A stretch of 64,000 nt of DNA, taken from the NCBI RefSeq assembly GCF_012295575.1, contig NZ_CP051180.1, positions 186,001-250,000 on the forward strand, read 5' to 3'. Position 1 is the first letter of the stretch. The number at the start of each line of letters is the position of its first letter. Source of the DNA: Ferrimonas lipolytica. GTDB taxonomy: Bacteria > Pseudomonadota > Gammaproteobacteria > Enterobacterales > Shewanellaceae. Below are positions 840 to 59,755 of this stretch, piece by piece. A program made the position numbers and the translations under genes. The notes below the pieces were generated by a model. It was given only the letters and a program-made list of their open reading frames with translations, searched no databases and was not told where the DNA came from.

Positions 840-1131
840 GGCTGTTTACCAACTAAGTGTTGTTCTAACCAATACCGTTAAGCATCGGCTAGGCGCGTCC
901 AGAGACCAGGGGGAAAGCGCTAACACCATTGATTTTCTGATGCATTGGAGTGATCCCGCGAAACATTTTGGACCGCGTTCTAAGGCAAAGGGAGGGGCCA
1001 AAGGGGGACGAAGCTCTCCCCTAATGCATACAAGAATGTGCCGTCGCCACCGCAACATCCTCCCCTAAAGCAGCGCAATCGGTACAGCCGAAGACTAAAG
1101 ATAAACTTCAGCAGTTAACTACGACACAGCC
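840..1131 (+). mobile_element. MITE-like element, copy 1 (292 bp)
   Basis: The outer 7 bp are GGCTGTT at the left and CACAGCC at the right, and the interior matches the other copies in this window, in the same orientation as those at 8031 and 37334. Flanks ATTTTTTT (832-839) and ATTTTTTA (1132-1139) agree at 7 of 8 positions, consistent with an aged 8-bp target duplication. The left flank is the T-tract of the gshA terminator. Short open frames inside have no start signals and recur with the repeat, so they are not regarded as genes. Confidence 0.8.
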
Positions 1132-1156
1132 ATTTTTTATGGCGTGTTTTTAGCTG

Positions 1157-1774
1157 TTAGGCTAGGGCGACCGAACCGCCTAAGGCTAAAAATACTACCG
1201 CACAGGCGCGATTAAAGCGTCGCTGTGAGGTTGGGTGTGCCAAGCTGTTGGCTAAGCGGCAACCGCCCATTGCAACCAGATTGAGGATAATAAAGTCCAC
1301 AGCGGTGAAGGTTAGGCACAACACTGTTAACTGTGGCAGCAGTGGTTGATCCGCATGTAGGAACTGGGGGAATAACGCAGCAAAGAAGATGAGCCCTTTG
1401 GGGTTACTGATACCAATCATCACCGTTTTCAGAAACAGCTTTAGCGGCTCACACTCTTGCTCGGCAAAACTGTTGCACGAACAATCGTTGGTTTTAGCGC
1501 GCCAAGCACTAACACCTAACCAGATCAGATAGGCAGCACCGGCAACCTTCAACATCTCAAACAGGACTGGTTGGCTACTCAGCAAAGCGCCTACCCCAGT
1601 GGCTGATAGAGCCATTACAATCAAACCCGCTAGATTGGAGCCTATAACGGTGAAAAGTGCCTTACCGTGACCATAGCGAACGCTGGTGGATAGCGTCATC
1701 AAGGTCATCGGCCCAGGGGCCGCCAACAACACCACAATGGTGGCTAGGTAGACAAGATACAGCTCTAACGACAT
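1157..1774 (-). CDS. LysE/RhtB-family amino-acid exporter
   Basis: A 205-residue inner-membrane protein with about six hydrophobic segments, the usual size for LysE/RhtB exporters. The N-terminus has the family hallmark APGPMTLMTLSTSVRYG, in which the APGP motif and a following G/R-rich stretch are characteristic; SNPKGLIFFAALFPQF in the second half is another family motif. Such proteins export amino acids or derivatives such as homoserine, threonine, leucine or lysine using the proton gradient; the substrate cannot be read from the sequence. It is monocistronic. Its 3' end lies 25 bases from a MITE-like element and I see no clear terminator of its own. Confidence 0.85.
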   Translation of the reverse strand: MSLELYLVYLATIVVLLAAPGPMTLMTLSTSVRYGHGKALFTVIGSNLAGLIVMALSATGVGALLSSQPVLFEMLKVAGAAYLIWLGVSAWRAKTNDCSCNSFAEQECEPLKLFLKTVMIGISNPKGLIFFAALFPQFLHADQPLLPQLTVLCLTFTAVDFIILNLVAMGGCRLANSLAHPTSQRRFNRACAVVFLALGGSVALA

Positions 1775-1977
1775 AAGTTATTCGCGCTTTGAAAAACGAA
1801 GGCCGCATTAGAACAGTGTGTTCACCATCTGTAAAGTGGATGAACTCCTAGTTTTTGCCGAAAAAACTGTCATATTTTATTGCCACGAAGGAACTCACAT
1901 TTTGGCTACTTAAGATGAGGTAAATCTCACTAAAAAGCGTTGAAATGTGATGTGTTGGGCAATTTTTTTTGCGAGAC

Positions 1978-2015
1978 AAAAAAAACGAGAAATGCCCTGC
2001 CAGGTCGTTTCTCGT
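1978..2015 (-). terminator. Minus-strand intrinsic terminator without an obvious gene
   Basis: ACGAGAAA (1985-1992) pairs with TTTCTCGT (2008-2015). Read on the minus strand the hairpin is followed by a run of eight T residues (A-tract 1978-1985). No minus-strand CDS lies upstream between 2015 and the SLT gene, so it would end either an antisense/small RNA or spurious transcription towards lysE. Confidence 0.5.
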
Positions 2016-2031
2016 AAAATCTTGGAGGATA

Positions 2032-2112
2032 ATGATGATGAACTGGAATTCCGGTTCATTATGTAGGACTCGGAGCCTTTCAATTAGTTCAATGAACAGG
2101 CACAATTTTTAA
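2032..2112 (+). CDS. Possible 26-residue small protein or leader peptide
   Basis: Three consecutive ATG codons follow TTGGAGGAT at ideal Shine-Dalgarno spacing; the frame ends in TAA 28 bases before the SLT lipoprotein gene. The peptide contains WNSGSLCRTRSLSISS and is not recognised. The first codons overlap a 9-bp hairpin (2038-2059, arms ATGAACTGG and CCGGTTCAT, loop AATT, one G-U pair), which could affect translation. It may be a small protein, a leader ORF for the downstream gene, or chance. The ribosome binding site is the main argument for expression. Confidence 0.3.
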   Translation: MMMNWNSGSLCRTRSLSISSMNRHNF

Positions 2113-2140
2113 ATTATTTTGCTTCAAGATATAGAACTGC

Positions 2141-2791: not shown

Positions 2792-3022
2792 GGCTGTGTC
2801 GTAGCTAGCTGTTGAAGTTTATCTTAAGCTTTCGGCTTCACCGATTGCGGTGTTTTTAGGTGACTATGTCGCGGTGGCGACGGCACCAAAAGGGGAGCTT
2901 CGCTGGACTGCTCCAATGCGGGAGAAGATCAATAGCGGTAGTGCTTTACCCTTGGTATCAAAACTTGCCTAGCCGCTGCTTTAACTGTATTCCAAAGAAC
3001 AACACTTAATTGGTACACAGCC
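2792..3022 (-). mobile_element. MITE-like element, copy 2 (231 bp, short form)
   Basis: Begins GGCTGTGTCG and ends ACACAGCC. It is flanked by a perfect 8-bp duplication, CAAAAAAG, at 2784-2791 and 3023-3030. It lacks about 55-60 internal bases present in the long copies; the copy at 8031 lacks the same region. The right duplication coincides with the T-tract (minus strand) of the dxs terminator. Confidence 0.88.
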
Positions 3023-8030: not shown

Positions 8031-8263
8031 GACTGTTATAGCAACTTAAGTGCTGTACTAACTAATACTGTTAAAGCAGCGGCTAGGCGTGTCCCGAGAC
8101 AAGCGGTTAAGCACTATCGCCATTGTTCTTCTGCTGCATTGGAGCAGTCCAGCGAAGCTCCCCTTGGGGGGCCGTCGCCACCGCGACATAGTCCCCTAAA
8201 AGCACCGCAGTCGGTGAAGCCGAAGGCTTAAGATAAACTTCAACAGCTAACTACGACACAGCC
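8031..8263 (+). mobile_element. MITE-like element, copy 3 (233 bp, short form)
   Basis: Flanked by a perfect 8-bp duplication TATTTTTA (8023-8030 and 8264-8271). The left end has decayed to GACTGTTATAGC while the right end keeps CGACACAGCC. It shares the internal deletion of copy 2, implying a short subfamily. It is inserted between the pomB stop and the presumed pomB terminator. Confidence 0.85.
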
Positions 8264-25345: not shown

Positions 25346-25390
25346 TAACGACTAATGTGGTTTAACGTGACGATATTGCGATGATGCTAG

Positions 25391-25432
25391 CACCAGCACC
25401 AGCACCAGCACCAGCACCAGCACCAGCACCAG
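25391..25432. repeat. Hexanucleotide microsatellite (CACCAG)7
   Basis: Seven perfect tandem copies of CACCAG. Frames across it encode Ala-Pro on the plus strand and Gly-Ala on the minus strand, but neither frame has convincing coding features. Hexamer changes would not shift a reading frame. Confidence 0.95.
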
Positions 25433-25648: not shown

Positions 25649-25941
25649 GGCGGTGTCACAGTTAAGTGTTGAGGTTTATATCAAGCCTTCGGCTCTAGCG
25701 GTTGCAGTACTCTTAAGGGGTTATGTCGCGGTGGCAACGGCACATTCCTGTATGCATTAGCGGGGAGCTTCGCCCCCTTTGGAATGCCCCCTTGCCTTAG
25801 GTCGCACTCCAAAGCGCTTCGCTGGGCTGCTCCAATGCGGCAGAAGGTCAACGGCGGTAGTGCTTAACCCCTTATATCGGCGCTCGCCTAGCCGGTGCTT
25901 TAACTGTATTAGAAACAACAACAGTTAATTGGTACACAGCC
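25649..25941 (-). mobile_element. MITE-like element, copy 4 (293 bp)
   Basis: A full-length long-form copy, starting GGCGGTGTCACAG (one change in the conserved GGCTGTG end) and ending GGTACACAGCC. Its immediate flanks (ATTTCTAT left, TTTTTAAT right) do not match, because a partial second copy follows in tandem; the left flank loosely matches ATTTTATA after that partial copy. Confidence 0.85.
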
Positions 25942-26105
25942 TTTTTAATCCCCCTTGCTTTAGGTCACAGTCCCCAAACGCTTCGCTGGGCTGCTCCAAT
26001 ACGGCAGAAGGTCAACGGCGGCAGTGCTTAACCCCTTGTATCGGCGCTCGTCTAGCCGGTGCTTTAACAGCCTTGGAAAGAACAACACTTAGTTGGTACA
26101 CAGCC
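25942..26105 (-). mobile_element. Partial tandem copy of the MITE-like element (right half)
   Basis: About 160 bases, beginning near AATCCCCCTTGCTTTAGG, repeat the right half of copy 4 and end in GTTGGTACACAGCC. The left half is missing. Arrangement suggests recombination between two copies or insertion next to an existing one. Confidence 0.8.
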
Positions 26106-37333: not shown

Positions 37334-37623
37334 GGCTGTGTACCAATTAACTATTGTTGTTGCCAATGCAGTTAAAGTACCGGCTAGGCGAGTTTTGATA
37401 CAAGGGGAAAGCACTACCGCCGTTGATCTTTTGCCACATTGGAGCAGTCCAGCGAAGCGTTTTGGACTACGACCTAAGGCAAGGGGGATAGCAAAGGGGG
37501 CGAAGTTTCCCCTAATGTATACAAGAATGTGCTGTCGCCGCAGCGACATCGTCCCCTAAAAGCAGCGCAATCGGTGAAGCCGAAGGCTTAAGATAAACTT
37601 CAACAGCTAACTACGACACAGCC
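37334..37623 (+). mobile_element. MITE-like element, copy 5 (290 bp)
   Basis: Starts GGCTGTGTACC and ends CGACACAGCC, plus-oriented like copies 1 and 3. Flanks CTTTTGTC (37326-37333) and CTTTTGTT (37624-37631) match at 7 of 8 bases. The left flank is the T-tract of the preceding terminator. Confidence 0.88.
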
Positions 37624-37835: not shown

Positions 37836-40800
37836 ATGAGCCCAATTGCCAACCAACTCGAGCTAACCCGTAAAGAACTGCTGGATATGGGGCTGCGCGG
37901 CAACCCGCTGCTGAGCTTTCGCCATAGCTCGGCGCGTACGCTTGAGGTTATCGATGAAAAGTCGTTAGAGCTGTTCCACACCTTGGTGACGCAGGGGAAA
38001 AACATGGGGTTTGCACCGCTGCCGAGCGCACTGACACCAGAGGAGGATAAACCTACTCCAACAGCGGCGGCGGTGGCTGACTATCTGCAGCAACAGAAGG
38101 GCGAGCAACGTCATCAAGACAGCTTAATGCAGACCAGATTCCAACCGGATATCCTCGATCGCAAGCTGCTCAAAATCGAAACCGAAGCCAAGACCTTTAT
38201 TGAGGAGCAGGGCATCGATATCCTCTACATTGGCTTGGGTTTTGTCCATTGGTATGAAGACGATAACAGCGATAAAGTCCGCCGAGCACCGCTGTTGTTG
38301 GTGCCGGTTGAGCTCAGTCGAGGCAGTGCCGCTGAACGATTTAAGTTGACCTATACCGGCGCTGAACTGGGACCCAATCTAACCCTTGGGGCCAAGCTGC
38401 GGCAGGATTTTGGGATAGAGTTACCAAGCTTCGATAGCCTGGAAGAAGCTACTGAGCTGTTTCATTACTTTGTTGAGGTGTCGCAAGCTATTGCCATCCA
38501 ACCACGATGGCAACTGGTGCAAGATGAAGTAGCGCTGGGTTTCTTTTCGTTTGGTAAGTTCCAGATGTATCAAGATCTGGACGACAGCAATTGGCCCGAA
38601 GGAAAACAGGCGGCGCAATCAACGGTACTACAGCAACTGTTTGGCGAAGGCTTCCCCCATGCAGAGCAGTATCAAGCGGATCATCAGGACAATGAGCAAC
38701 CCCTGCCTCTAGCACGGCACGAACAACTTCATTTGGTGAAAGACTCCGACTCAAGCCAAACCGCGGCGGTGGAAATGGTGCGCTCTGGCAGCAGCATGGT
38801 GATCCAAGGCCCCCCCGGTACTGGTAAGTCGCAAACCATTACTAATATCATTGCTCAGGCGATTTCGGACAACAAAACCGTGTTGTTTGTCTCGGAGAAG
38901 ATGGCCGCACTTGAGGTGGTAAAGCGTCGCCTAGATGACACCCATTTAGGAGATGCGGTGCTTGAGTTGCATTCCCATAAAAGCAATAAGAAAAGTGTAC
39001 TTGGCTCGTTGGCGCAAACCTTAACCCAAGGTCAGCCACAGATCCCAGAACGTCACAATGAGTTGAAACGATTACAGCAGGTACGTAGCCAGTTAGATGA
39101 GTACTGTCAGCAGGTGAACCTGCCCGTACTCGATAGCGGTGTGAGCTATATCGAAGCTTTGGGACGTTCGTTAAAGGTTAGCGAGTTGGCTTCCGGTCGA
39201 GTGCTGCCCGAGTTCGACTTTGGGTTAATGAAGCGGTGGAGTAAAAGCCAATACCTTGAGCAACTGGCGGCGGTAAAGCGGCTGGTTACGCTACTCACCC
39301 AACTGGGTGTACCAGCCGACGGGCCCTTTGCCGCAACGCAATTGCGGAACTACTCACCAGTAGAGCAGGAGAAAGTTACCGCGCTGCTTAGCCACGCACA
39401 GGGCAATCTCAATGCTACCATGGCAGTTGCCGAGCAGTTAGCTAATGGCATGAGTTTGCCGGTACCGCACCAACTGTCTGATTGTCATGCATTGATGGCT
39501 GCTGCCAAACGTGCACTGAAGGCTCCGGATCTCGATGGCATTAATCTCAGCACCGAGCAATGGCAGCTACATCGTGAAGAGATTGAGCAACTCATTGGTG
39601 CTGGTAAACAATTAGCTGAGCTTAGGGTCAAACATCAACAACGTTTTATCGATGCCGCTTGGCAACAACAGTTACTGCCATTACGTACTGTCCTTGCTGC
39701 TAAAGGCAGCAGCTGGTTTCGTTGGTTCTCTGGTGATTACCGCGCCGCCAAAAATCAGCTAGCGGGAATGTTAACCGGCCCGCTTAGTGGGAAACCCAGT
39801 CAGTGGTTGGGTTGGATTGATGACCTAATGGCCTACCAACAAGCACAGCAACAATTTGAGCAACTACAAGCGTTGGCGCAGCGTTTGTTTGGCAGTCAAT
39901 GGCAAGGGCAGCAAAGCGATTGGAGCACGCTAACGAAACTGAGCGAGTGGATTGTTGAAACCTTCCGGCAGATAGGCGCCGGAGCTATTCCCGCAGGGTT
40001 GATGCCGTTTCTTACTGGCGGTAATGATCTCAGTGCCTATCAACCGTTGCTCGATAGCATGGAGCAGCAATGCCAGCAATTTGCTGCACCATTTCAGCAA
40101 CTGCTGCAACGGCTGCAACTGTCGGCTGAGGCGTTGGATTTTGATGCTACTTTTGGTGAACTCGCCGATCGCATCAACCAGTTCGGTGATCACAGCGACA
40201 GCCTCTATCAGATGACCACCTTCAACCGTATGCGCGATGAGTTCGCGGCGGCAGAGCTGGCGGTCGTCACCGACGTAGCCTTTAGCTGGCAAGGTGAGCC
40301 CGAGACCATTGCTCTAGGGTTGCAGAAAAGCTATTTCTCAGGCTTGGTAAACACCGCTTATGAGCAGCGACAAGCGATCAATCACTTCGATCGCAACGCC
40401 CATGAGCAAGTACTGGCTGAATTCCGTCGATTGGACTCCGCATTATTTAGCTTTGCCCAAGAACACCTAGTCAACGAGCTCTATCAGCGCCTGCCAGCGT
40501 CACACGCCAAAGGAGAGGTCGAAACTATTCGACGTGAGATGAATAAAAAGCGGCGGCAGATGCCGATCCGCCGTTTGTTGGATAGGGCGGGGCGAGCAGT
40601 TCAGCAGATTAAGCCGGTGTTTATGATGAGCCCAATGTCGATAGCAACCTACCTCAAGCCCGGTGCGGTTGAGTTTGATCTGGTGGTGTTCGATGAAGCC
40701 TCACAGGTGAAGGTTGCTGATGCCCTTGGTGCCATTCGTCGTGGCAAACAGGTCGTGGTGGTGGGGGACACTAAACAGATGCCACCTACCGACTTCTTTG

Positions 40801-42569
40801 GTCAAGGATTTGATAGCGGTGACGAGGACGAGGGCGATAACCTTACTGCCGATATCGAATCGATTCTTGGCCTATTTTTGGCTCAAGGAGCGCCAGAGTC
40901 GATGCTGCGTTGGCACTATCGCTCCCGTCACGAGTCACTGATTGCGGTGTCGAACCAAGAGTTCTATGACAACAAACTGATGGTATTCCCAAGCCCCGGC
41001 GTCAACCCCAACGCCTCTGGCTTAAGCCATAACCATCTGCCTGATTGCCCCTACGATCGCGGCGGTTCACGTACCAACCCGCAGGAAGCACAGGCGGTGG
41101 TTGAGGCGGTCTTGCACCATGCCCGCACCAAGCCGCAGCTCACCCTTGGTGTGGTGGCGTTTAGCGTGGCTCAACGTGATGCCATTTTGAACCTTCTCGA
41201 CCAAGCTCGGCGCAGTGCCCCAGAGTGCGAAACCTTCTTTGCTGACAATCCAGAAAATGAGCTGTTCTTTGTTAAAAACCTCGAGAATGTGCAGGGGGAT
41301 GAACGGGACGTGATCTTTATTAGCCTTGGTTACGGCCGCACTAATGCCGGTAATATGAGTATGAACTTTGGCCCACTTAACCGTGATGGTGGCGAGCGAC
41401 GTTTAAACGTATTGATCTCGCGGGCACGGCAAGCGATGAATGTATTCTCTAACTTTACCGCCGACGATCTTAAAACCGACAGCAGCAGCCCTTTTGGTAT
41501 CCGCGCGCTCAAAAATTTCCTGCATTACGCCAATACAGGGGTGTTAGTTGAGCGGGAAGAGACTGGCAAAGCACCGGACTCACCCTTTGAAGAACAAGTT
41601 ATCAGCGCTATCCGTGGCTTAGGCTATGAGATTGAACCTCAGGTTGGATGCTCTGGTTTCTATATCGATATTGCTGTGCGCGACCCAGCTAAACCCGGCC
41701 GTTATATCTTAGCGGTAGAGTGTGATGGTGCGACCTATCACGGCTCCCGTGAAGCGCGAGATCGAGATCGGATCCGGCAAGCGGTACTGGCAGGGCTCGG
41801 CTGGCGCTTCCACCGGATCTGGAGTACCGATTGGTTCCGCAATGCCCATAAGCAAACCGTCAAACTGCAGCAGTCAATTGAGCAAGCTGTTGCTTATTAT
41901 GGCGCCCTTGATAACGACCAAACTCAGGCCGCGGCGATAGAACCAATATTGGCGACGGTCAAACCGCAACAGCCCGAGCCAATCAAAGCGGACGTGACTC
42001 GGGTAGCGGTTGATCCAAACAGCGATAGCAGCATTCATTATAAATCGGTTGGTGGCGATGACTTAGCGCGTTTCCCTCAGCCGGACTTGTACGACGCGGA
42101 TAGCGAACAGCTCGGGCAAGCGCTCCTAACGGTGGTGCAAACTGAAGGGCCGTTGCACATCAAACGTCTGCTGCAGGTAACCTGTGATGCTTACGGTCTT
42201 GGGCGTGCTGGCGCTAAGATCCAGCGCACGGTGGAAGCGGCACTGCGGACCGTCGGCAATCAGATTCGTTGTGAAGGGCACTTCTTACAGCTGCCAGAAC
42301 AACCGATTGCAGTGCGCAATCGCGCCAAACTTGAAAGCAATGAACGCAAGTTTGAATGGGTAGCTCCAGCGGAGATTCAGCAAGCGCTACTGATGGCAGT
42401 TGAGAGTAGCCATAGCCTTAATGATGAAGATGCCATAGCCACCGTGGTTGAACTGCTTGGCTTTGGCCGTGCTACCGCTAAGGTGAAAGCACAGGTGCAG
42501 ATTGAACTCGATGCACTGCTTCAGTCACACCAACTGAAACGTGATGGCATGGATTTGCTGATTGGTTGA
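37836..42569 (+). CDS. DUF4011-SF1 helicase-nuclease protein (candidate defence gene)
   Basis: A 1577-residue multidomain protein. Residues ~1-280 match the DUF4011 N-terminal region (LELTRKELLDMGLRGNPLLSF). An SF1 helicase follows: Walker A GPPGTGKSQTITN near 325, a ~600-residue helical insertion, Walker B VVFDEASQVKVADALGAIRR near 952, VVVGDTKQMPP, and motifs NVQGDERDVIFISLGYGR and RLNVLISRAR. Residues ~1249-1345 form a Vsr/DUF559-like endonuclease with FYIDIAV and AVECDGATYHG (D...ExDG). A DUF3320-like region and C-terminal tail follow. Proteins with this architecture have been proposed as single-gene anti-phage systems; function here is inferred. It stands alone, with its own terminator. 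Confidence 0.85.
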   Translation: MSPIANQLELTRKELLDMGLRGNPLLSFRHSSARTLEVIDEKSLELFHTLVTQGKNMGFAPLPSALTPEEDKPTPTAAAVADYLQQQKGEQRHQDSLMQTRFQPDILDRKLLKIETEAKTFIEEQGIDILYIGLGFVHWYEDDNSDKVRRAPLLLVPVELSRGSAAERFKLTYTGAELGPNLTLGAKLRQDFGIELPSFDSLEEATELFHYFVEVSQAIAIQPRWQLVQDEVALGFFSFGKFQMYQDLDDSNWPEGKQAAQSTVLQQLFGEGFPHAEQYQADHQDNEQPLPLARHEQLHLVKDSDSSQTAAVEMVRSGSSMVIQGPPGTGKSQTITNIIAQAISDNKTVLFVSEKMAALEVVKRRLDDTHLGDAVLELHSHKSNKKSVLGSLAQTLTQGQPQIPERHNELKRLQQVRSQLDEYCQQVNLPVLDSGVSYIEALGRSLKVSELASGRVLPEFDFGLMKRWSKSQYLEQLAAVKRLVTLLTQLGVPADGPFAATQLRNYSPVEQEKVTALLSHAQGNLNATMAVAEQLANGMSLPVPHQLSDCHALMAAAKRALKAPDLDGINLSTEQWQLHREEIEQLIGAGKQLAELRVKHQQRFIDAAWQQQLLPLRTVLAAKGSSWFRWFSGDYRAAKNQLAGMLTGPLSGKPSQWLGWIDDLMAYQQAQQQFEQLQALAQRLFGSQWQGQQSDWSTLTKLSEWIVETFRQIGAGAIPAGLMPFLTGGNDLSAYQPLLDSMEQQCQQFAAPFQQLLQRLQLSAEALDFDATFGELADRINQFGDHSDSLYQMTTFNRMRDEFAAAELAVVTDVAFSWQGEPETIALGLQKSYFSGLVNTAYEQRQAINHFDRNAHEQVLAEFRRLDSALFSFAQEHLVNELYQRLPASHAKGEVETIRREMNKKRRQMPIRRLLDRAGRAVQQIKPVFMMSPMSIATYLKPGAVEFDLVVFDEASQVKVADALGAIRRGKQVVVVGDTKQMPPTDFFGQGFDSGDEDEGDNLTADIESILGLFLAQGAPESMLRWHYRSRHESLIAVSNQEFYDNKLMVFPSPGVNPNASGLSHNHLPDCPYDRGGSRTNPQEAQAVVEAVLHHARTKPQLTLGVVAFSVAQRDAILNLLDQARRSAPECETFFADNPENELFFVKNLENVQGDERDVIFISLGYGRTNAGNMSMNFGPLNRDGGERRLNVLISRARQAMNVFSNFTADDLKTDSSSPFGIRALKNFLHYANTGVLVEREETGKAPDSPFEEQVISAIRGLGYEIEPQVGCSGFYIDIAVRDPAKPGRYILAVECDGATYHGSREARDRDRIRQAVLAGLGWRFHRIWSTDWFRNAHKQTVKLQQSIEQAVAYYGALDNDQTQAAAIEPILATVKPQQPEPIKADVTRVAVDPNSDSSIHYKSVGGDDLARFPQPDLYDADSEQLGQALLTVVQTEGPLHIKRLLQVTCDAYGLGRAGAKIQRTVEAALRTVGNQIRCEGHFLQLPEQPIAVRNRAKLESNERKFEWVAPAEIQQALLMAVESSHSLNDEDAIATVVELLGFGRATAKVKAQVQIELDALLQSHQLKRDGMDLLIG

Positions 42570-42624: not shown

Positions 42625-42642
42625 ACGCTATGTAGCAGGTAA

Positions 42643-42815
42643 TTGTTGTTTTCAATTCGGTTAAAACAGCGGCTAGGTGGAGGCCAGACAAAAACAATAG
42701 CGCACCATTGCCTTGGTAGTCCCAGTGCTTTAGGTACGGTAACCACCAAGGCATAACCCAGTTAAAGCAATATGGTTGCTATCGCCGTAGCCTCAACAGC
42801 TAATCCCAATAGTTA
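42643..42815 (+). mobile_element. Strongly decayed MITE-like copy
   Basis: Segments such as TTGTTGTTTTCAATTCGGTT, AAACAGCGGCTAGGTGGAGG and, near the end, CCTCAACAGCTAATCCCAAT align in order with the plus-oriented copies, but the middle is replaced or eroded. It contains a local inverted repeat GCCTTGGT/ACCAAGGC (42710, 42745). Ends and target duplication are not recognisable. Confidence 0.45.
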
Positions 42816-42837: not shown

Positions 42838-43123
42838 GGCTGTGTCATAGTTAAGTGTTGAGGTTTATATCAAGCCTTCGGCCCGATTTCGATGCTTTAG
42901 GGGAGGATGTCGCGGTGGCGACAGCACATTCTTGTATGCATTAGGAGGGAGCTTTGCCCCCTTTGGAATCCCCCTTTGCCTTAGGTCGCACTCCAAAACG
43001 CTTCGCTGAACTGCTCCGATGCGGCAGAAAATCAACGGCGGTAGTGTTTACCCTTGTATCGCGACTCGCCTAGCCAGTGCTTTAACAGCATTGGAATGAA
43101 CAACACTTAGTTGGTACACAGCC
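42838..43123 (-). mobile_element. MITE-like element, copy 6 (286 bp)
   Basis: Starts GGCTGTGTCATAG and ends GGTACACAGCC, with a perfect 8-bp duplication TATTGTTG at 42830-42837 and 43124-43131. Long form, minus-oriented. It lies between the helicase gene and the ahpC promoter region. Confidence 0.9.
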
Positions 43124-45880: not shown

Positions 45881-47227
45881 ATGACCTACCAACTCACCGC
45901 TGTGGCACTAATCCTGTTGTTACTTAGCGGTTGTCAAAGCTTCAGCGCCGATGATCACCGCGAGGCGATCGAACAAGCGCAAGCCCAATTGCCAGCGTGG
46001 CAAAGCCAGAATGACTCGGCGCAAACGGCTACCGAGTTATCGCAGCTATTAAGCGATCCTCAATTAGATCAGCTGATTGCGGCGTCCCAAGCTGCCAACC
46101 CGAGTTTGCAGCAAACCCTGTTGTCACTGCAGATAGCCTATGCGCAACAGCAGCTTACGCGCGGCGATAGGTTGCCCAGCGTCGATTTGGGCTTAGCTAC
46201 CAGTGACGGCGAAGATGGCAGCAGCAACAGCGCTGAGCTAAGTGTCAGTTGGGAACTGGATCTGTGGCGCAAGCTGGCGGACGCGGACAGTGCTGCCAAG
46301 ATGGATCTTGCAAGCAACGAAGCGAGCTGGCAGCAAGCGCAAGACCTGTTGGTAGCCAATGTGATGCGCGGTTATCTCAATTACGCTCAGCAGCAGCAAT
46401 TGGTCGTGCTGGAGCAGCAGCGGTTGCAGCTGTTACAAAGCAATGAGGCGGTTATCCTAGAGCGCTACCGCGTTGGTTTAGGTGACTTGGAAGCGTTAGA
46501 TAACGCTAAAACCAGCACCGCCACCACCCAAGCCACTATTGCGCTGTATCAACAACAGTTGGCCAACAGCATCCGCACCTTGCAACAGCTCACCGGCGAT
46601 AGCGAGCTGAGCGTGGCAGGTACCAGCACTTACCCGCACGTGAGCCAACCATTAGCCACCTTACCAATTCAGGATCTAAGCCGTCGTCCCGACTTGCAAG
46701 CGGCGTACTTCAATACTCAATCGGCCTACTACAGCAGCAAGGTGGCATATAAATCGATGCTGCCAAGCATTAGCCTACAAGCGGCACTGACCGACAGCGC
46801 CAATTCCATGCAGGATGCACTGTTTACCAGCCCAGCGTGGAGCCTATTAGGTCAGCTTACGGCTCCCTTGTATCAAGGGGGGCAACTTAAAGCACAGGCT
46901 GAAATCGCTGAATTGGAATCCGCCCAAAGTTACTGGGCCTACCGTGAAATATTGCTGGCAGCGGTGTTGGAAGTTGATGAAGCCATCGACAACGAACGTA
47001 ACCTTAGTGCGCAGATCGCTCATCTCGATACTGCCGTGCGAAGCGCGACTCGCAGCAGCGATAGTTATCTCAAAAAATACCGTCAGGGTCTGGTTGATAT
47101 CGTTGATTTATTGAGCGTGCAACAACAGCAGTTTGATGTTGAAAGTCAGCAGATCCAAGCCACTTATAATCACCTCGTTAACCGCATCGATCTGGGCCTC
47201 GCGCTAGGTCTAGGAGTAAACCAATGA
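45881..47227 (+). CDS. RND efflux outer-membrane lipoprotein (TolC/OprM-like)
   Basis: A 448-residue outer-membrane channel with a lipobox (LLSGCQS near residue 18). The two repeated helical halves typical of the NodT/OprM group are visible: DPQLDQLIAASQAANPSLQQ, then ELDLWRKLADADSAAK in the first half and LSRRPDLQAAYFN in the second. It opens a five-gene operon with 1-4 base overlaps: channel, adaptor, RND pump, response regulator, sensor kinase. Substrate is unknown. Confidence 0.92.
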   Translation: MTYQLTAVALILLLLSGCQSFSADDHREAIEQAQAQLPAWQSQNDSAQTATELSQLLSDPQLDQLIAASQAANPSLQQTLLSLQIAYAQQQLTRGDRLPSVDLGLATSDGEDGSSNSAELSVSWELDLWRKLADADSAAKMDLASNEASWQQAQDLLVANVMRGYLNYAQQQQLVVLEQQRLQLLQSNEAVILERYRVGLGDLEALDNAKTSTATTQATIALYQQQLANSIRTLQQLTGDSELSVAGTSTYPHVSQPLATLPIQDLSRRPDLQAAYFNTQSAYYSSKVAYKSMLPSISLQAALTDSANSMQDALFTSPAWSLLGQLTAPLYQGGQLKAQAEIAELESAQSYWAYREILLAAVLEVDEAIDNERNLSAQIAHLDTAVRSATRSSDSYLKKYRQGLVDIVDLLSVQQQQFDVESQQIQATYNHLVNRIDLGLALGLGVNQ

Positions 47228-48384
47228 AACTGAAACTTTTGCCTATCGCCGTTACTATAGCCTGTGGTGTAGCACTGTTTAGTGCGGTGGCATACAACGG
47301 TTTTCAGATGGAAAATCATCAACAGCAACGAGCCCCTAAGCCAGTAGTGGTTGCGCCCAGTGTTGCAGTATCAGTAGTTAGCGCCGACAGCTATACCTCC
47401 GTCGTACAAGGCTACGGCGAAGCGCTGCCGCAATATCAATTAACTCTAACTGCCCAAAGTAGCGGGCAAGTTTTGACCTTGGCGGATGCCTTTGCCAGCG
47501 GTAATCAGGTTAAAGCGGGGCAGTTGCTGGCTAAGGTGGAAGACAGCAATTACCAGCAAGCGGTGAGCGATGCCAACAAGGCGGTAGCGGATGCCAAGTT
47601 GGCACTGTTAGAGGAGCAGCGCCAAGGCGATCAAGCAAGAAAAGATTGGCAACACTCTGGGCTTGAGGGCGAACCTGACTCCCCATTGGTGTTGCGTCAG
47701 CCACAGTTAGCCGCGGCGGAAGCAACCCTAGAACAAGCGCTACGACAGCTGGCTAGCGCTAAGGTGGATCTGGCTAATACCGAGATCCGCGCTCCATTCG
47801 ATGCGGTTATCGTTAGCCGCGATATACAACTTGGTAGCTACCTGCAACAAGGCAACAGCGTGGCGATGCTATACAGCACCGACGTTGCCGAAATCCGCGT
47901 CCCGTTGTCACAGGTACAGTGGCAGGCATTAGGGCAGTTGCAATTAGGGCCGGAGCATAAGGTGGCGCTTAGTAGTAGCGATGGTCATGAGCAGTGGCAG
48001 GGTTATGCCGCCCGGATTGAACAACATCTTAATAGCAGTGATCGTCAGCGCTCTTTAGTGGTTGCTGTCGATGAGCCATTAGCACTGGCATCGCCATTAC
48101 ACGCTGGTACCTTCGTTACCGCCACTATTACTGGGCAAGAGCGCAGCAACCTGTGGCAGCTGCCTACAACCGCAATCTCCCAAGATGACGCCATTTGGAT
48201 GGTGACTGACGCGCAAACCATTGTGCCGCAAGCGGCCGAGGTGGTGTTTGCTGATCAAAGCTGGGTGTATTTGACACCATCTACCGTGGACGGCACTGCG
48301 CAGATCGTACAGCGTCCGCTGAATAATTACCTCAGCGGCATGCGGATTAATGCCGTCAGCGACTCGGAACAGGAGCAGCAGTAA
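47224..48384 (+). CDS. RND efflux periplasmic adaptor
   Basis: A 386-residue membrane-fusion protein joining the RND pump to the outer-membrane channel. It has an N-terminal hydrophobic anchor (residues 5-25), a lipoyl-like half site around ASGNQVKAGQLLAKVEDSNY, an alpha-hairpin (~95-165) and a second lipoyl motif ANTEIRAPFDAVIVSRDIQLG with SYLQQGNSV, then a beta-barrel. Its start overlaps the channel stop (ATGA) and its stop overlaps the pump start by one base. Confidence 0.93.
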   Translation: MKLKLLPIAVTIACGVALFSAVAYNGFQMENHQQQRAPKPVVVAPSVAVSVVSADSYTSVVQGYGEALPQYQLTLTAQSSGQVLTLADAFASGNQVKAGQLLAKVEDSNYQQAVSDANKAVADAKLALLEEQRQGDQARKDWQHSGLEGEPDSPLVLRQPQLAAAEATLEQALRQLASAKVDLANTEIRAPFDAVIVSRDIQLGSYLQQGNSVAMLYSTDVAEIRVPLSQVQWQALGQLQLGPEHKVALSSSDGHEQWQGYAARIEQHLNSSDRQRSLVVAVDEPLALASPLHAGTFVTATITGQERSNLWQLPTTAISQDDAIWMVTDAQTIVPQAAEVVFADQSWVYLTPSTVDGTAQIVQRPLNNYLSGMRINAVSDSEQEQQ

Positions 48385-51300
48385 TGACTGAAGGCCATAA
48401 CGATTCAACCCCAAGTAGGCCAGCTCCGGTGGGCCCGAAGCCAAACGGTTTGATCTCTTGGTTTGCCGCTAACTCCGTCGCGGCCAACCTATTGTTGGTC
48501 GGTGTGCTGGTACTTGGACTGTTGACTGTCGGTGATATCCGTAAAGAGGCGTTTCCGTCGCTTGAACCAAGCCGGGTAACGGTATCGGTTACTTACGACA
48601 GCGGTGACGCTCAGCAAGCAGAAGAAGGCATTGCCATCAAGATTGAGGATGCTATCGAATCGGTTGCGGGGATCAAGCGGATCACCTCAACCTCTAATGC
48701 CAGTGGTAGTACGGTCGTGATTGAGAAAACCTCGAGCTACGACCTTGATCTGTTGATGGATGACGTCAAGACCAAGGTCGATGCCATCTACAACTTCCCT
48801 GCGGATGCCGAGAATGCGGTAATCGAGAAAGCGACCCGTCAGGACCACGCGATTACGGTGCAACTGTATGGCGACTCTGATCGTCGTACTCTGCAGGCGT
48901 TGGCGGAAGAGTTAAAGATCGATCTGTTAGCTAAAAACGGCATCAGTGAAGTGGAGTTTCAGGGCAAAGCTGAGCCGATGATCTCCATTGAAGTCGATGA
49001 AAACAGGCTGCAATCCTACAACCTAACCTTGACTGATATCGCCACCGCAGTGAATGCCGAGTCGGGTACGGCTATCGGCACCAGCTTGCGTAATGGCGAC
49101 AAAGTGGTGCGTTTGAAGGCCGCAGAACAAAGCTATCGGGTCACTGACTTTGCCAATATTGTTGTGCACAGCAGCGCTGAGGGTGGGGTGATCTTCCTTG
49201 GCGATATCGCTGATATCAGTCAGCAGTTCGAAGACGAACCCTATGTGATGTCGCGCTTTGCTGGGCAAGCGGCGATCGCGATTGAGATTGTAATGGATGA
49301 ACTTGGCGACGTTACTGACATCGTCGCTCAAGCAAACGAGGTGGTGACCGATTGGCACGATCGAGGTTTGTTACCCGCCGGCGTTGAGTTGGTTACTTGG
49401 TACGACAAAAGTGATTTGATCACCGATCGTCTGTCGTTGCTAACGCAAAATGCCATAACCGGTATTGCGATGGTGTTTATCGTATTGGCGCTGTTTTTGA
49501 ACCTGCGAGTGGCGTTTTGGGTAGCGATGGGCCTGCCATTTGTATTCTGCGGCACCCTGTTTTTCCTCGGCGATAACTACGCCGGCATGAGCCTCAACGA
49601 AATGACTACCTTCGGCTTTATCATGGCCTTGGGAATCGTGGTCGACGATGCGGTGGTTGTCGGCGAGAGTATCTATAGTGAGCGGCGTCGTTATGGCGAT
49701 AGCTTACATAACACTATTGGCGGCACCATGCGGGTAGCCGTACCAACCCTGTTTGGCGTACTTACCACTGTAGCGGCGTTTTACGCGCTCAGTAACGTTG
49801 AAGGTCAAATGGGCAAATTGTACGCCCAGTTTGCTACTGTGGTAACCATCTGCTTGTTGCTGTCGGTGGTGGAGTCGAAGTTGATTTTGCCAAGCCACTT
49901 GGCTCACTTGGATACCCACAAAAAGGTAAACCCTGGAATCTTAGGGTTGTGGAACCGTATCCAACATGGCTGTGATATGGGCTTACAATGGTTCTCGGAT
50001 AACATCTATCGTCGCGTTATAAGCTGGGTACTGCAGTTGCGCTACGCAGTTATCTTGGGCTTTATCACCCTATTTGTGCTGGTGGTTGGCTTGCCGTTAA
50101 CCGGTAAGGTTAAGGTGGGATTCTTCCCTGATATTCCCGGAGACACCATTGTCGCCAGCGTTAGCATGCAAACCGATGCCGGTTATGGCCTATTAGAGGA
50201 TCACCTGTTGACTCTGCAACAGCAGGCACTGATTGTTGATAATGAGATGAGCGATGCCAACAGTAGCGGCATTGATGCGCTGCAGCTATTGGCGGAAAGC
50301 GACAGTAGTGGTCAGGTCACCATCGAACTGAGCGACGACGCCAACTACAGTTCCCGTGAATTTGTAAAACAATGGCAGCAATTGGCGGGTAACCCAGAAG
50401 GGGTTAAGAAACTAAAATTTGTTACCGCGTTTGAGGGCTTGGATAACTTTAAAGTTGAGCTGAAGGCGAGTGATTTTGACATCTTGACCGCGGCAGGGGG
50501 GGAGTTCCGTCAAGCATTGGGTGAGATCCAAGGCGTTAGCGGCATTGATGATAACCTCAGCTCTAAGGAGCCGCAGTTCCGCTTTGAGTTAACCCAACAA
50601 GGACGTGCTTTAGGCTTTACCACCTCGGATCTATCCCGTCAGATCTTACAAACCTTCGGTGGTGAGATTGTGCAGCGTTACCAGCTCGATCGCGATGAGG
50701 TAAAGGTGCGTATTCGATACCCAGAGCAACAGCGACAAACCTTGGCCGACGTTAACGCCGCTAAATTGCGTGCACCGGATGGCACCATCGTGGCATTGAC
50801 CGATGTGGTGGTGATTCGCCAAGAGATGGAGTTATCGGAGCGTACCCGTATCGACTCGCAAAGTGCGGTATATCTAACAGCATCGTTAGATAAGGAGCAG
50901 CTTGCCTCGAACGCGTTGGTGGCGCAATTGCAGCGGGATCTGGTGCCACAGCTGCAAGCCAACTACCCAAGCCTGAGCATCCATTTTGCCGGTGAGGCGG
51001 AAGCGCAACAAGAGTCCAGTGAGTCAATGGCAAAGATGTTCTTAATGGCGTTGCTGGGAATCTACGCGTTGTTGGCTATTCCGTTGCGTTCTTACGTGCA
51101 ACCCATGTTGATCATGACCGCAATCCCGTTTGGTATCGTTGGTGCGATTTTGGGCCATTGGTTTAATGATCTAACCATCAGCTTGCTCTCTTTGAATGGG
51201 ATCTTGGCGCTCAGTGGCGTGGTGGTAAACGACAGTTTGTTGTTGGTGTCTCGTTACAACGAATTGCGCAAAGACTTGCACATTAAGGAAGCGATAACCG

Positions 51301-51557
51301 AGGCCTGTACAGGCCGCTTACGAGCGGTACTATTGACTTCGGTAACCACCTTTGCAGGCTTGGCGCCACTGCTGAGCGAAACCTCAATGCAGGCTCAGTT
51401 TCTTATCCCAGCGGCTGCGTCTTTGGGTTATGGTATTCTGTTTGCAACGGTCATTACGCTGGTGCTTATTCCTTCTTTATTATTGATTCAAGAAGAGATT
51501 AAGGCTCTGCCTAAGCGTTTTCTGAACAAGCCGGCACATACCGAGGAGTACGCTTAG
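48384..51557 (+). CDS. RND-family efflux pump permease
   Basis: A 1057-residue AcrB-like inner-membrane transporter with 12 expected helices and two large periplasmic loops. The N-terminus WFAANSVAANLLLVGVLVLG is typical of a subgroup near AcrB/MdtBC. GIVVDDAVVVGESIYSERRR in TM4 carries the proton-relay aspartate pair. The second half contains the matching PFGIVGAILGHW and ALSGVVVNDSLLLVSRYNE. It exports drugs, detergents or metabolites using the proton gradient; specificity cannot be read. Confidence 0.95.
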   Translation: MTEGHNDSTPSRPAPVGPKPNGLISWFAANSVAANLLLVGVLVLGLLTVGDIRKEAFPSLEPSRVTVSVTYDSGDAQQAEEGIAIKIEDAIESVAGIKRITSTSNASGSTVVIEKTSSYDLDLLMDDVKTKVDAIYNFPADAENAVIEKATRQDHAITVQLYGDSDRRTLQALAEELKIDLLAKNGISEVEFQGKAEPMISIEVDENRLQSYNLTLTDIATAVNAESGTAIGTSLRNGDKVVRLKAAEQSYRVTDFANIVVHSSAEGGVIFLGDIADISQQFEDEPYVMSRFAGQAAIAIEIVMDELGDVTDIVAQANEVVTDWHDRGLLPAGVELVTWYDKSDLITDRLSLLTQNAITGIAMVFIVLALFLNLRVAFWVAMGLPFVFCGTLFFLGDNYAGMSLNEMTTFGFIMALGIVVDDAVVVGESIYSERRRYGDSLHNTIGGTMRVAVPTLFGVLTTVAAFYALSNVEGQMGKLYAQFATVVTICLLLSVVESKLILPSHLAHLDTHKKVNPGILGLWNRIQHGCDMGLQWFSDNIYRRVISWVLQLRYAVILGFITLFVLVVGLPLTGKVKVGFFPDIPGDTIVASVSMQTDAGYGLLEDHLLTLQQQALIVDNEMSDANSSGIDALQLLAESDSSGQVTIELSDDANYSSREFVKQWQQLAGNPEGVKKLKFVTAFEGLDNFKVELKASDFDILTAAGGEFRQALGEIQGVSGIDDNLSSKEPQFRFELTQQGRALGFTTSDLSRQILQTFGGEIVQRYQLDRDEVKVRIRYPEQQRQTLADVNAAKLRAPDGTIVALTDVVVIRQEMELSERTRIDSQSAVYLTASLDKEQLASNALVAQLQRDLVPQLQANYPSLSIHFAGEAEAQQESSESMAKMFLMALLGIYALLAIPLRSYVQPMLIMTAIPFGIVGAILGHWFNDLTISLLSLNGILALSGVVVNDSLLLVSRYNELRKDLHIKEAITEACTGRLRAVLLTSVTTFAGLAPLLSETSMQAQFLIPAAASLGYGILFATVITLVLIPSLLLIQEEIKALPKRFLNKPAHTEEYA

Positions 51558-52234
51558 TGTTGAACCTGTTGGTGGTTGAGGATGACCTCGATTTGGCGGC
51601 ATCGCTAATCGATTATCTCGAGCTCGAGGAGATGCAGTGTGACCATGCAGCCAATGGTTTGGCTGCCCTGGAGCTTATCAATAGCAACAATTACGATGTG
51701 ATTGTGCTCGATCTCAATCTACCCAAACTGGATGGTTTACAGGTCTGCCAACAGATGCGAGCTGCGGGTAACGATTCCCCAGTATTGATGCTCACTGCTC
51801 GCGACAGTTTGGACGACAAGGTTAACGGCTTTCAATCTGGCACTGACGATTACTTGGTGAAGCCTTTCGCAATGGAGGAGTTAGTGGTGCGGGTGCTGGC
51901 GCTATCGAAGCGTCGCAGCGGTCAAACGACCAAGCTTATTATTGCCGATCTGCAGATGGATTTGAGCCTTAAGCAAGTGCACCGAGGACAACGAGCACTG
52001 AAGTTGACTCCCACCGGTTATAAATTGCTGCAAGCCCTGATGCGGGTTGCCCCAGAGCCCCTTAGCCGTGAAGCGTTGATGAAAGCAGTGTGGGGCGACG
52101 ATCAACCGGACAGTAACAGCTTAAAAGTGCATCTACATAAACTGCGCAAGCAGGTAGACCTAGAGGGTGAACTATTGCTGACCATTCCCAACGTTGGCTT
52201 TGCGCTGCGCCAAGAGGTAACTGATGCGCCGTAG
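51557..52234 (+). CDS. OmpR-family response regulator
   Basis: A 225-residue regulator. The receiver domain has acidic ED at residues 8-9, phospho-acceptor Asp52 in IVLDLNLPKLDG and Lys in DYLVKPF near 102; a winged-helix DNA-binding domain follows (LTPTGYKLLQALMR, NSLKVHLHKLRKQVD). Start GTG overlaps the pump stop. With the downstream kinase it forms a two-component system within the efflux operon and probably controls it. Confidence 0.93.
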   Translation: MLNLLVVEDDLDLAASLIDYLELEEMQCDHAANGLAALELINSNNYDVIVLDLNLPKLDGLQVCQQMRAAGNDSPVLMLTARDSLDDKVNGFQSGTDDYLVKPFAMEELVVRVLALSKRRSGQTTKLIIADLQMDLSLKQVHRGQRALKLTPTGYKLLQALMRVAPEPLSREALMKAVWGDDQPDSNSLKVHLHKLRKQVDLEGELLLTIPNVGFALRQEVTDAP

Positions 52235-53474
52235 CTTGAAGATCTATCTGATTGGGGTACTTTTACTACTTGGAACCTTGGTGTCGGTCACCTTGTCGGT
52301 GGTGGCACTGAAATACTTTACCGGTGGTATGGATTCACTGCAAAGCCATAACATGCTTACCAGCGCTCGTGAGGCGGAGCGCCGTGGTGTCGATGACCGC
52401 TATTTCTTGCAGTACCATGTAACCCGCGACTGGGCCAAAGTGCCGGCGGAGGTAAAGCAACTTATCCCGGCAATACCTAGCGAACCCTTTCTGTTAACTA
52501 AGAAGTTTGTTGATGGTCCTTGGGCACTCGCACCGAGTCGTGGTGCCTTCGTATTGATGGTGGACGGCAACGATGGCGTGCGCCGTTATGTCTCCATGCT
52601 GCTCAAACCTGAACGGCTTGAGCCGTTAACCAAAAATAGTCTGTTTGCTTTTGGCACCAACCCGCTTTTGGTGATTGTTGGCTTTGGTGTAGCTGGAGTA
52701 GTGTTGTTTGGTTTGGTGCTGTGGGGGCTGATGCGGCAGATCACTCAGCCGGTTCAAAGGTTGGGTAATTGGGCTAAATCCCTTGGTACAGACGAACGTA
52801 ATCAAATCACTCCAGATTTTCAATATCGTGAGCTCAATGGGCTGGCGAGTATCATCAAAACAGGGGTGATTGCGGTGCAAGATAGCACCGAGCGTGAGCG
52901 GGAGTTTTTGCGTCACGCCAGCCACGAACTACGTACTCCGATTACCGTAGTGAGGGCTAATAGTGCCATGCTTGGTAAGCTTACCAGCGATGCTAATAGC
53001 AAACAGGGGCGGGCCCAACAGCGGATAGAACGTGCCGGTAAAACCATGAGCGATCTGGTGGAAACGCTGTTGTGGATGAGTCGGGAGCAGCAGCTGCAAG
53101 CACCGCAGCCGGTAGCCATTGGTCTACTTATCCAAGAGCTCATCGATGAGCTGGATTATCTACGCCAGAAACAAAAGGTTGAACTGCAGATCGATATTGA
53201 TGACAGCCAGCTCCTGCTTGCTCAAACCCCATGCCGAATCGTTATCTCCAACCTGATCCGCAACGCCTTTCAACACACTGCGGAAGGCACGGTAACGGTG
53301 ACGCAAAGGGGCAATGAATTGTCGATTAGCAACCCGATTGGCGTCGGTGAAACCAATGACGTTGGCTTTGGTTTGGGGTTGAAACTAAGCCGTAAACTAG
53401 TTGAGCAATACCAATGGCAGTTATCTGAGCTCGTCGATGACCAGTGGCATACAGTCGAACTAACCTTCGCTTAA
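52224..53474 (+). CDS. Sensor histidine kinase
   Basis: A 416-residue membrane kinase: TM1 at about 7-27, a ~115-residue periplasmic sensor, TM2 near 142-168, a HAMP-like linker, the H-box LRHASHELRTPITVV (phosphorylated His near 234), an N-box NLIRNAFQHT, and a G2 box FGLGLKLSRKL. It lacks an obvious D/G1 motif of usual length, as seen in some short HATPase domains. Starts 11 bases inside the response-regulator gene and is its presumed partner. Confidence 0.92.
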   Translation: MRRSLKIYLIGVLLLLGTLVSVTLSVVALKYFTGGMDSLQSHNMLTSAREAERRGVDDRYFLQYHVTRDWAKVPAEVKQLIPAIPSEPFLLTKKFVDGPWALAPSRGAFVLMVDGNDGVRRYVSMLLKPERLEPLTKNSLFAFGTNPLLVIVGFGVAGVVLFGLVLWGLMRQITQPVQRLGNWAKSLGTDERNQITPDFQYRELNGLASIIKTGVIAVQDSTEREREFLRHASHELRTPITVVRANSAMLGKLTSDANSKQGRAQQRIERAGKTMSDLVETLLWMSREQQLQAPQPVAIGLLIQELIDELDYLRQKQKVELQIDIDDSQLLLAQTPCRIVISNLIRNAFQHTAEGTVTVTQRGNELSISNPIGVGETNDVGFGLGLKLSRKLVEQYQWQLSELVDDQWHTVELTFA

Positions 53475-58366: not shown

Positions 58367-58450
58367 CAACGCGATTTAGCTAAGGCTTTAGCTAGCGGAA
58401 CGTATCCGCTAGCCAAGTATTGCTGTCAGCACTGACTGAATCAGTGTGGT

Positions 58451-58936
58451 TTACTCATACTCAGAAGAGTAGGTTTCTGCGTAAGAGTGAGAGTACAGCT
58501 CAAACAGGTTACCAAACGGGTCTTCTAGATAAACCATCTTAGCTTGTTTGCTGTCATCTTCCGGGTGGTAGCGCATGATATCCATCCGTACCTTGCCGCC
58601 AAACTTGGTGGTGCGTTCAATCACACCTTCGAAGTCATCGGTTTCAAGAGAGAAGTGGAAAATACCAATCTTGTTGAAATCGACGATGTGGCGCTGTTCG
58701 CGATTCTTCATCTCAAACAGTTCAACCCCAATACCATCAGTGGTCAGTAGATGGGCAATATTAAAGCCTTCAAAACCTTCACCAAAAACCGCTACACACA
58801 TTCTACCGATGGCGGTTTCCTGCTCCTCTTGTACGCGGCTTTTACCCATTACCACCTTTAAGCCTAGTGCGTTAGTGTAAAATTCAACGGCTTGGTCCAT
58901 GTCGCCAACCATAATGCCTACGTGACTCATTTTCAT
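58451..58936 (-). CDS. VOC-family (glyoxalase-like) protein
   Basis: A 161-residue protein with paired beta-alpha-beta-beta-beta modules of the vicinal oxygen chelate superfamily. Metal-ligand candidates are His5 in MSHVGIMVGDMDQAVEFY, His in GIFHFSLETDDFEG and Glu in FELYSHSY. DPFGNLFELYSHSY is a typical C-terminal motif. Function could be glyoxalase I, dioxygenase or an epimerase-like reaction; not resolved. An AT-rich region upstream presumably holds the promoter. Confidence 0.85.
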   Translation of the reverse strand: MKMSHVGIMVGDMDQAVEFYTNALGLKVVMGKSRVQEEQETAIGRMCVAVFGEGFEGFNIAHLLTTDGIGVELFEMKNREQRHIVDFNKIGIFHFSLETDDFEGVIERTTKFGGKVRMDIMRYHPEDDSKQAKMVYLEDPFGNLFELYSHSYAETYSSEYE

Positions 58937-59179
58937 AATTGATTCCTCATAACCGAGTGCTTCACTGCGGTGTTGTTTGTTTCGATGAGGTCATTATGGG
59001 AGCAATGGGGAATAATCTGAAATTATCAAATATTATTAGTTTAATAATGTGTAGTGATGATTTGAGGGTGATGAATCCAACGTTAGCATCGTGGTTAGTC
59101 TGTTGGTGTTATTGCAGTTGGCATTGCGATTGAGTTGCCTTATGGTAGCGACCAATTAAACAAGGCTCTAAGGTGAATC

Positions 59180-59395
59180 ATGACCCCGTTTGAAATATCA
59201 AGAATTGAAACCGCCTCTGGGGTGTATCGGATCAGCGGTAGCTACGATCTTTCTGGGCGGGCACTGCAGTTTGATTTTACTGCTGCGGCAGTTATGGCGA
59301 CTGACGGTTGGGAGGAGCTCAACGTCAAATCCAAGGGGGGCTTGGCGCGCTTACAAAAACTGATACCGGAGCTATTACTGCACCTAGAGGTGTGA
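59180..59395 (+). CDS. Small protein of unknown function (71 residues)
   Basis: ATG is preceded by TAAGGTGAATC, a fair ribosome binding site. The composition is soluble and balanced (RISGSYDLSGRALQFDFTAA, EELNVKSKGGLARLQKLIPE), which favours a real protein, but no family is recognised. It ends 20 bases before one arm of a hairpin interrupted by MITE-like copy 7. Confidence 0.55.
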   Translation: MTPFEISRIETASGVYRISGSYDLSGRALQFDFTAAAVMATDGWEELNVKSKGGLARLQKLIPELLLHLEV

Positions 59396-59410
59396 GTTCT
59401 GCTTGGTAAT

Positions 59411-59755
59411 AAAAACGGCGCCGGCAAGTTAGTTAAATTAGGCTGTGTCGTAGTTAGCTGTTGAAGTTTATCTTAAGCCTTCGGCTTCACCGATTTCGGT
59501 GCTTTGGGGGAGGATGTCGCGATGGCAACGGCACATTCTTGTATGCATTAGCGGGGAGCTTCGCCCCCTTTGGAATCCCCCCTTGCCTTAGGTCGCAGTC
59601 CAAAGCGCTTCGCTGGACTGCTCCAATGCGGCAGCAGATCAACGGCGGTAGTGCTTAACCCCTTGTATCGGCGCTCGTCTAGCCGGTGCTTTAACTGTAT
59701 TAGAAACAACAACACTTAATTGGTACACAGCCTTAAATTAACCTGCCGGCGCCGT
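59411..59755 (-). terminator. Terminator hairpin split by MITE-like copy 7
   Basis: ACGGCGCCGGCA (59415-59426) and TGCCGGCGCCGT (59744-59755) are perfectly complementary, with five A residues at 59411-59415 giving a T-tail on the minus strand. They belong to one terminator downstream of the CoA-transferase genes; copy 7 lies in the loop. Without the element the loop would be about 17 bases. Confidence 0.75.
59441..59732 (-). mobile_element. MITE-like element, copy 7 (292 bp)
   Basis: Starts GGCTGTGTCGTAG and ends GGTACACAGCC, with a perfect 8-bp duplication TTAAATTA (59433-59440 and 59733-59740). Minus-oriented long form and among the best-preserved copies. It is inserted in the loop of a terminator hairpin. 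Confidence 0.92.

Follow-up and report, generated by a model that had tools for sequence, protein, structure and literature searches.

What is the origin of a short repeat that recurs seven times within 64 kb of a bacterial genome, and what determines where its copies lie? The question is raised by a stretch of the Ferrimonas lipolytica genome (one contig of 4,133,133 bp), of which positions 186001-250000, 64,000 nucleotides (nt) referred to here as the window, carry copies of a miniature inverted-repeat transposable element (MITE). The answer put forward here, which we consider quite probable, is that these are MITEs of an insertion sequence (IS) of the IS1595 family and that they were inserted with a preference for the 8 bp that begin right at the foot of a terminator-like hairpin.

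The MITE has the ends GGCTGTGT...ACACAGCC, and its full form is near-palindromic and about 292 bp long. In fact, a profile of the family matches most copies on either strand, which means that the MITE resembles its own reverse complement, and the predicted RNA fold of one copy beats those of its shuffles (z -3.3). The end motif GGCTGTGTNNNANYTA has 326 exact occurrences genome-wide (161 + 165), against none for a reversed-pattern control, and in the window GGCTGTGTNNNANTTA is matched 18 times if up to 2 mismatches are allowed, whereas 5.1 matches are expected and 100 shuffles gave no more than 11. Density was estimated by profile search of a spaced sample, consisting of the window and 38 further stretches (824 kb), which gave 71 stretches after merging, of which 39 are full length; scaled arithmetically to the genome, this corresponds to some 196 full copies and 356 stretches. 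For the analysis of insertion sites an enlarged set of about 1.65 Mb was used, which added further stretches and the best-scoring loci and was partly picked by listed ends, so that its density is biased. It gave 189 profile stretches, 119 of them full length with flanks, and the addition by hand of two internally deleted copies from the window brought the set to 121.

The sequence-only reading of the window had proposed a family of MITEs that duplicate 8 bp of their target, to be checked by counting copies and duplications over the whole genome. The inverted ends, the lack of a transposase and the genome-wide counts all support this proposal. The flanking 8-mers of the 121 full copies are identical in 41, match at 7/8 in 27 and at 6/8 in 22, the corresponding frequencies among 14,520 mispaired flanks being 0.34%, 2.8% and 7.8%; at least 6/8 is thus reached by 90/121 copies, compared with 10.9% of the mispaired pairs. 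The length of 8 bp is apparent from 39 full copies, in which identical flanks were found in 4/39 at 7, 12/39 at 8 and 1/39 at 9.

The position of hairpins was tested on the 90 copies whose flanks match at 6/8 or better, 31/121 copies below this being dropped. Hairpins were predicted from sequence within 45 nt either side, with a G-C closing pair and a score cut-off of 16. Such a hairpin was present in 53 of the 90 copies, with its foot at most 1 nt from the duplication in 35 and exactly at the duplication in 21; past 2 nt the distances are scattered. Random intergenic 8-mers matched in A/T content gave, as means per 90 over 100 draws, 22.2 with a hairpin, 8.6 within 1 nt and 4.6 at 0, the maxima being 15 within 1 nt and 10 at exactly 0. 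In a second control, made of other occurrences of the identical 8-mers, 12.5 of 89 would be expected within 1 nt. These findings are insensitive to the cut-offs: with a simpler test for perfect stems the count was 38/90 against a control of 5.0 (maximum 12, 100 draws), and a foot within 1 nt was found in 15/41 copies with a perfect duplication, 10/27 at 7/8, 10/22 at 6/8 and 13/31 of the dropped copies.

The 37 copies lying at most 2 nt from a hairpin foot indicate what kind of hairpin this may be. Read from the hairpin side, their 8-mers consist of T in 79% of the letters (235/296), and the orientation of the MITE relative to the hairpin is mixed (20:17). With long open reading frames (ORFs), not annotation, taken as genes, 34 of these copies are intergenic, none of them between divergent genes, one was called inside a gene and two could not be placed; in 32/36 cases transcription of the hairpin-side gene runs toward the hairpin. 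The duplicated 8-mer would often be the T-tract of a putative rho-independent terminator, starting at the foot of its hairpin. The data favour a target which the sequence-only reading had missed, namely the foot of a terminator-like hairpin, beyond mere AT-richness.

The copies and fragments in the window (window coordinates) are as follows:

840..1131, minus strand: MITE of 292 bp, duplication ATTTTTTT/ATTTTTTA (7/8), hairpin CCCCCGAGTGTTGAGCTCGGGGG directly before it
2792..3022, plus strand: MITE of 231 bp with an internal deletion, perfect duplication CAAAAAAG, adjoining hairpin GCCGCCCTGAGCATACTTGGGGCGGC (minus-strand reading)
8031..8263, minus strand: MITE of 233 bp with an internal deletion, perfect duplication TATTTTTA, lying against the 5' (gene-proximal) flank of hairpin GGGGACTTTTGTCCCC
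25649..25941, plus strand: MITE of 293 bp, flanks matching at only 5/8, no adjacent hairpin called
25939..26105, plus strand: partial MITE joined to the 25649 copy, profile positions 126-292, E 9e-38
37334..37623, minus strand: MITE of 290 bp, duplication CTTTTGTC/CTTTTGTT (7/8), after short hairpin GGGGCTATGGCCCC, whose score of 15 left it uncounted
42627..42703, minus strand: decayed MITE fragment, profile positions 205-291, E 2e-5
42838..43123, plus strand: MITE of 286 bp, perfect duplication TATTGTTG, no adjacent hairpin called
59441..59732, plus strand: MITE of 292 bp, perfect duplication TTAAATTA

By eye, the 59441 copy lies inside the loop of ACGGCGCCGGCA...TGCCGGCGCCGT, and it was excluded from the hairpin-adjacent count. 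Each of the seven main copies was confirmed with the ends that the sequence-only reading had given it, as were the perfect duplications at 2792, 8031, 42838 and 59441 and the 7/8 ones at 840 and 37334. It had also listed three partial or decayed copies, of which those at 25942 and 42643 were recovered by the profile; the one at 25299 has no profile match at E 1e-3, although, by eye, a hairpin-like stretch and TTTTTA are immediately followed there by an end-like GGTTGTGTC. The window copies, with their inverted ends, span 231-293 bp and are too short to encode a transposase. No match to Rfam was found in the window, nor any match of one MITE copy in plasmid and phage records.

Some neighbouring features were also recorded. 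A short tandem CACCAG repeat occupies 25389-25440 and is also found in contig C33 of a relative, G010, considered below. Positions 37836-42569, between two MITE copies, hold a gene resembling anti-phage ProA (NF058533, 1465 bits against a cut-off of 1500), and 45881-53474 is a run of ORFs which may be an RND-type efflux operon, its stretch 45881-47227 matching outer-membrane efflux families. Elsewhere in the genome (L087:9390-10299, G000:909390-910299) there is a tandem MITE triplet, with AAATAAAA at each separation and TTTTTGTT at both outer sides, which looks like either a composite moved as a single unit or the outcome of several hits on the same spot.

Sites without the element were sought in G010, the closest relative found, whose identity with the first 12 kb of the window is 78% and 83% in the two conserved blocks of greatest length. 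In the gaps of G010 that match 840, 2792, 8031 and 59441 the MITE profile has no match at E 1; all four gaps hold a strong hairpin, three of them with an adjoining A- or T-tract. The comparison covers these four sites, 25649, 37334 and 42838 lying outside it. The empty sites which the sequence-only reading had proposed to look for in relatives, each with a single 8-mer, were thus found as regards the absence of the element, the 8-mers themselves being too diverged in G010 for comparison. G010 also carries a diverged, related repeat family (L032, L034-L039) that shares the interior of the MITE at 75-83%, and some of its copies stand by eye at terminators (e.g. L037, L038).

As for the parent, which according to the sequence-only reading could not be named, the IS1595 family can be named from the sequences at hand, by the ends, by the duplication of 8 bp and by a full-length, though decayed, copy within the genome. 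The IS1595 transposase family PF12762 has a single match in the genome, decayed and with stops (28.4 bits, cut-off 27), which belongs to the following element:

L031:1402-2430: IS1595 remnant of 1,029 bp, ends GGCTGTGTCTTAATTAGCTGTTG and GGCTGTGTTTGAGTTAACTGTTG, flanks TATTAAAA/TATTAAAG forming a 7/8 duplication

This decayed element, with like ends, is a candidate for the full IS whose search had been suggested. The MITE and the remnant share 21/24 bp at one end (blastn E 0.001) and 19/23 bp at the other (E 0.2), with no similarity found beyond the ends, the interior of the MITE not being IS-derived. An intact 1,023-bp IS1595 element with like ends exists in F. futtsuensis (PF12762 at 42.9 bits, 315 aa open), its duplication CTTTTTTG being 8/8 at two sites, where one flank, cut off by the end of a contig, is just 10 nt long; the zinc ribbon PF12760 reaches 21 bits in it, below the curated 25.4. 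The species is known from the transposase loci of G008, a member of Ferrimonas, which agree at 100% with F. futtsuensis records. Moreover, when the window, L031 and the 20-kb stretches were screened for long pairs of inverted ends (450-3000 bp) whose duplication reaches at least 7/8, only the remnant and the MITE triplet were found. A class-wide search with the transposase at E 1e-40 matched 2/369 genomes, own genome included, and the transposase sequence had no match at E 1 among PDB chains. The other families considered, ISL3, IS6 and IS1, were left out of the parent search because a full-length element sharing the ends had already come from the IS1595 search. The earlier proposal that a related IS is the source is supported as to derivation by the IS1595-like ends, movement itself being unobserved. 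The best match between MITE copies has a median identity of 90.6% and a maximum of 95.9% (118/121 copies with a match of at least 200 bp); since no pair exceeds 96% and the transposase is broken, the family looks old and inactive here, and it is probably immobile in the F. lipolytica genome.

The placement was also studied in autonomous IS1595 elements, with 25 sites showing a duplication in several genera: 12 loci, 10 plasmid sites, the remnant (L031) and the Telluria sites L211 and L219. The 12 loci are those of 28 which gave a duplication of at least 6/8 (L161, L163, L166, L167, L169-L171, L173-L176, L178); L162 and L164 are the other F. futtsuensis insertion ends, the flanks of L168 and L179 did not match, and L165, L172, L177 and L180-L188 gave no usable pair. 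The plasmid sites came from 14 regions read out of 57 records, L079, L194 and L197 having no end pair; L077 has unmatched flanks, although the 8-mer of its right flank has a hairpin 2 nt away. A hairpin foot was found at most 2 nt away in 9/25 sites (control mean 0.44, maximum 3, 300 draws) and the figure for Telluria antibiotica is 6/8 against a control mean of 0.43 (maximum 3, 300 draws), both controls being laxer than those of the MITEs, as they were drawn from flank DNA that includes coding sequence. L166 is counted among the 25, its hairpin lying 5 nt off, and Telluria L176 was scored as a miss (d = -7, the stem running into the A-tract), being a terminator by eye. Both F. futtsuensis sites lie at terminator-like hairpins whose foot includes the first base of CTTTTTTG. 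In Telluria antibiotica L219 (G406:C42), one terminator has been hit twice, leaving two full tandem copies in the order hairpin-ATTTTTTT-IS-ATTTTTTT-IS-ATTTTTTT.

A number of observations weigh against this account of origin and target. There is no scored hairpin within 1 nt in 55/90 MITE copies, the preference being partial; only 1/10 plasmid-borne relatives with a matched duplication stands at a hairpin; none was found beside the remnant of the own genome, and at the F. kyonanensis element the one flank that can be seen carries none above the cut-off. The end matches between MITE and IS are, in addition, short, and one has a weak E-value (0.2). The misses on the plasmids, at the remnant and in F. 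kyonanensis imply that the preference is partial or limited to part of the IS1595 family.

Insertion at the hairpin foot would have proceeded through an IS1595 transposase acting in trans on the short pairs of MITE ends. The transposase or target complex, perhaps with a host factor, would engage the junction of hairpin and T-tract, an 8-bp staggered cut would be made there, and the element would be joined across the stagger. The signal recognised may be an A/T-tract flanked by GC, a hairpin formed in the DNA, or a paused polymerase. The last of these can be taken further: the 8-bp cut would fall on the U-tract, which provides the RNA-DNA hybrid of the polymerase at termination, and the hairpin foot would stand at the upstream edge of this tract. 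A transposase capturing terminating transcription complexes, with termination itself as the target of IS1595 elements, would fit the register of 0-1 nt, the T-rich strand and the 32/36 genes directed toward the hairpin; the copy at 8031 on the gene-proximal side of its hairpin, that at 59441 in a loop and the 4/36 genes pointing away speak against it, and we regard it as rather doubtful. Whatever the signal, duplication of the T-tract means that hairpin and T-tract remain together on one side of the element, so that the upstream gene should still terminate. Insertion at a terminator foot probably does little harm, and harmless landing together with the loss of damaging insertions would allow a build-up to about 200 copies.

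The same distribution might arise if the transposase preferred A/T-tracts only, terminators simply being where T-tracts sit in the genome. AT-rich 8-bp duplications are indeed described for ISApl4, of the IS1016 subgroup of IS1595, in the accessible part of one report (PMC12561309), and T-tracts by themselves enrich for hairpins, as seen in the controls (8.6/90 and 12.5/89). Nevertheless, on the exact-8-mer control this is rejected by the 35 copies observed against 12.5 expected and by the sharp register at the hairpin foot, to which the 6/8 Telluria sites against 0.43 may be added (on the laxer control, coding included); it is accordingly judged unlikely. A similarly low probability is given to random insertion followed by survival of only the harmless copies at gene 3' ends. 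Depletion between divergent genes (10/113 of all copies against 186/813 gaps overall) and the single copy of 121 called inside a gene agree with such selection, as do the 11/115 joined flanks that fall within an ORF of at least 100 aa. Selection for 3' gaps, however, leaves unexplained the near single-nucleotide register at the hairpin and the two IS1595 copies at one Telluria junction, with ATTTTTTT three times; it may act in addition to targeting.

That the repeats have a function for the host, as terminators, RNA or nucleoid sites, instead of being derived from a transposon, is very improbable. The near-palindromic form, the one copy that folds above its shuffles and the mostly intergenic position would suit such a function, against which stand the 8-bp duplications in many copies, the IS1595-like ends, the mixed orientation (20:17) and the absence of the element at four comparable sites, in G010 only. 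Insertion of IS1595-derived MITEs after the foot of terminator-like hairpins remains the reading adopted here.

An IS1595-derived MITE with AT-rich 8-bp duplications is in itself an ordinary kind of element. The likeness to the family lies in the ends (GGCTNTGT...), the 8-bp duplications and the PF12762 DDE transposase of the parent, the window elements differing in that they carry no transposase; the nearest relative with an ISfinder-style name, from the plasmid search, is ISAchd1-like. A genome survey, in its accessible part, reports IS1595 to be overrepresented between genes and, in Beta- and Gammaproteobacteria, to prefer a distance of 500-550 bp from the closest gene, a preference which differs from a terminator rule (PMC9208149). 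ISApl4 likewise has A/T-rich 8-bp duplications and mapped sites that are mostly non-coding, although many of its insertions lie within genes, as far as the available portions of the report tell, and the word 'terminator' does not occur in that text (PMC12561309). In the literature searched, of which subscription coverage was limited, no statement of terminator-hairpin placement was found for IS1595, which is not proof that none exists.

Hairpin or terminator targeting is already known for IS1272/TnSha1 and group IIC introns and, in the papers searched, was not found for IS1595. IS1272/TnSha1, of the IS1182 family, resembles the present case in that its targets are hairpins, among them several terminators, chosen with no specificity for primary sequence. 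It differs in that its insertion is blunt, removes a portion of the hairpin and leaves no duplication, according to the sections available (PMC4923244). The MITEs, with an 8-bp duplication and the whole hairpin beside the copy, do not follow this type of targeting. Group IIC introns are not known to have either a DDE transposase or inverted repeats. They too recognise DNA hairpins such as gene terminators, being however retroelements that use the intron RNA and short IBS motifs, as described in the accessible part of the source (PMC3898094).

In this context, a high-copy bacterial MITE receives a named parent family, together with a target rule of near single-nucleotide register that is common to some autonomous IS1595 elements of other genera. 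Landing in the T-tract of a terminator, with its duplication, would explain how hundreds of copies could be carried without harm to the host. Moreover, the system offers a testable case of target choice, either through a DNA hairpin or through the terminating polymerase.

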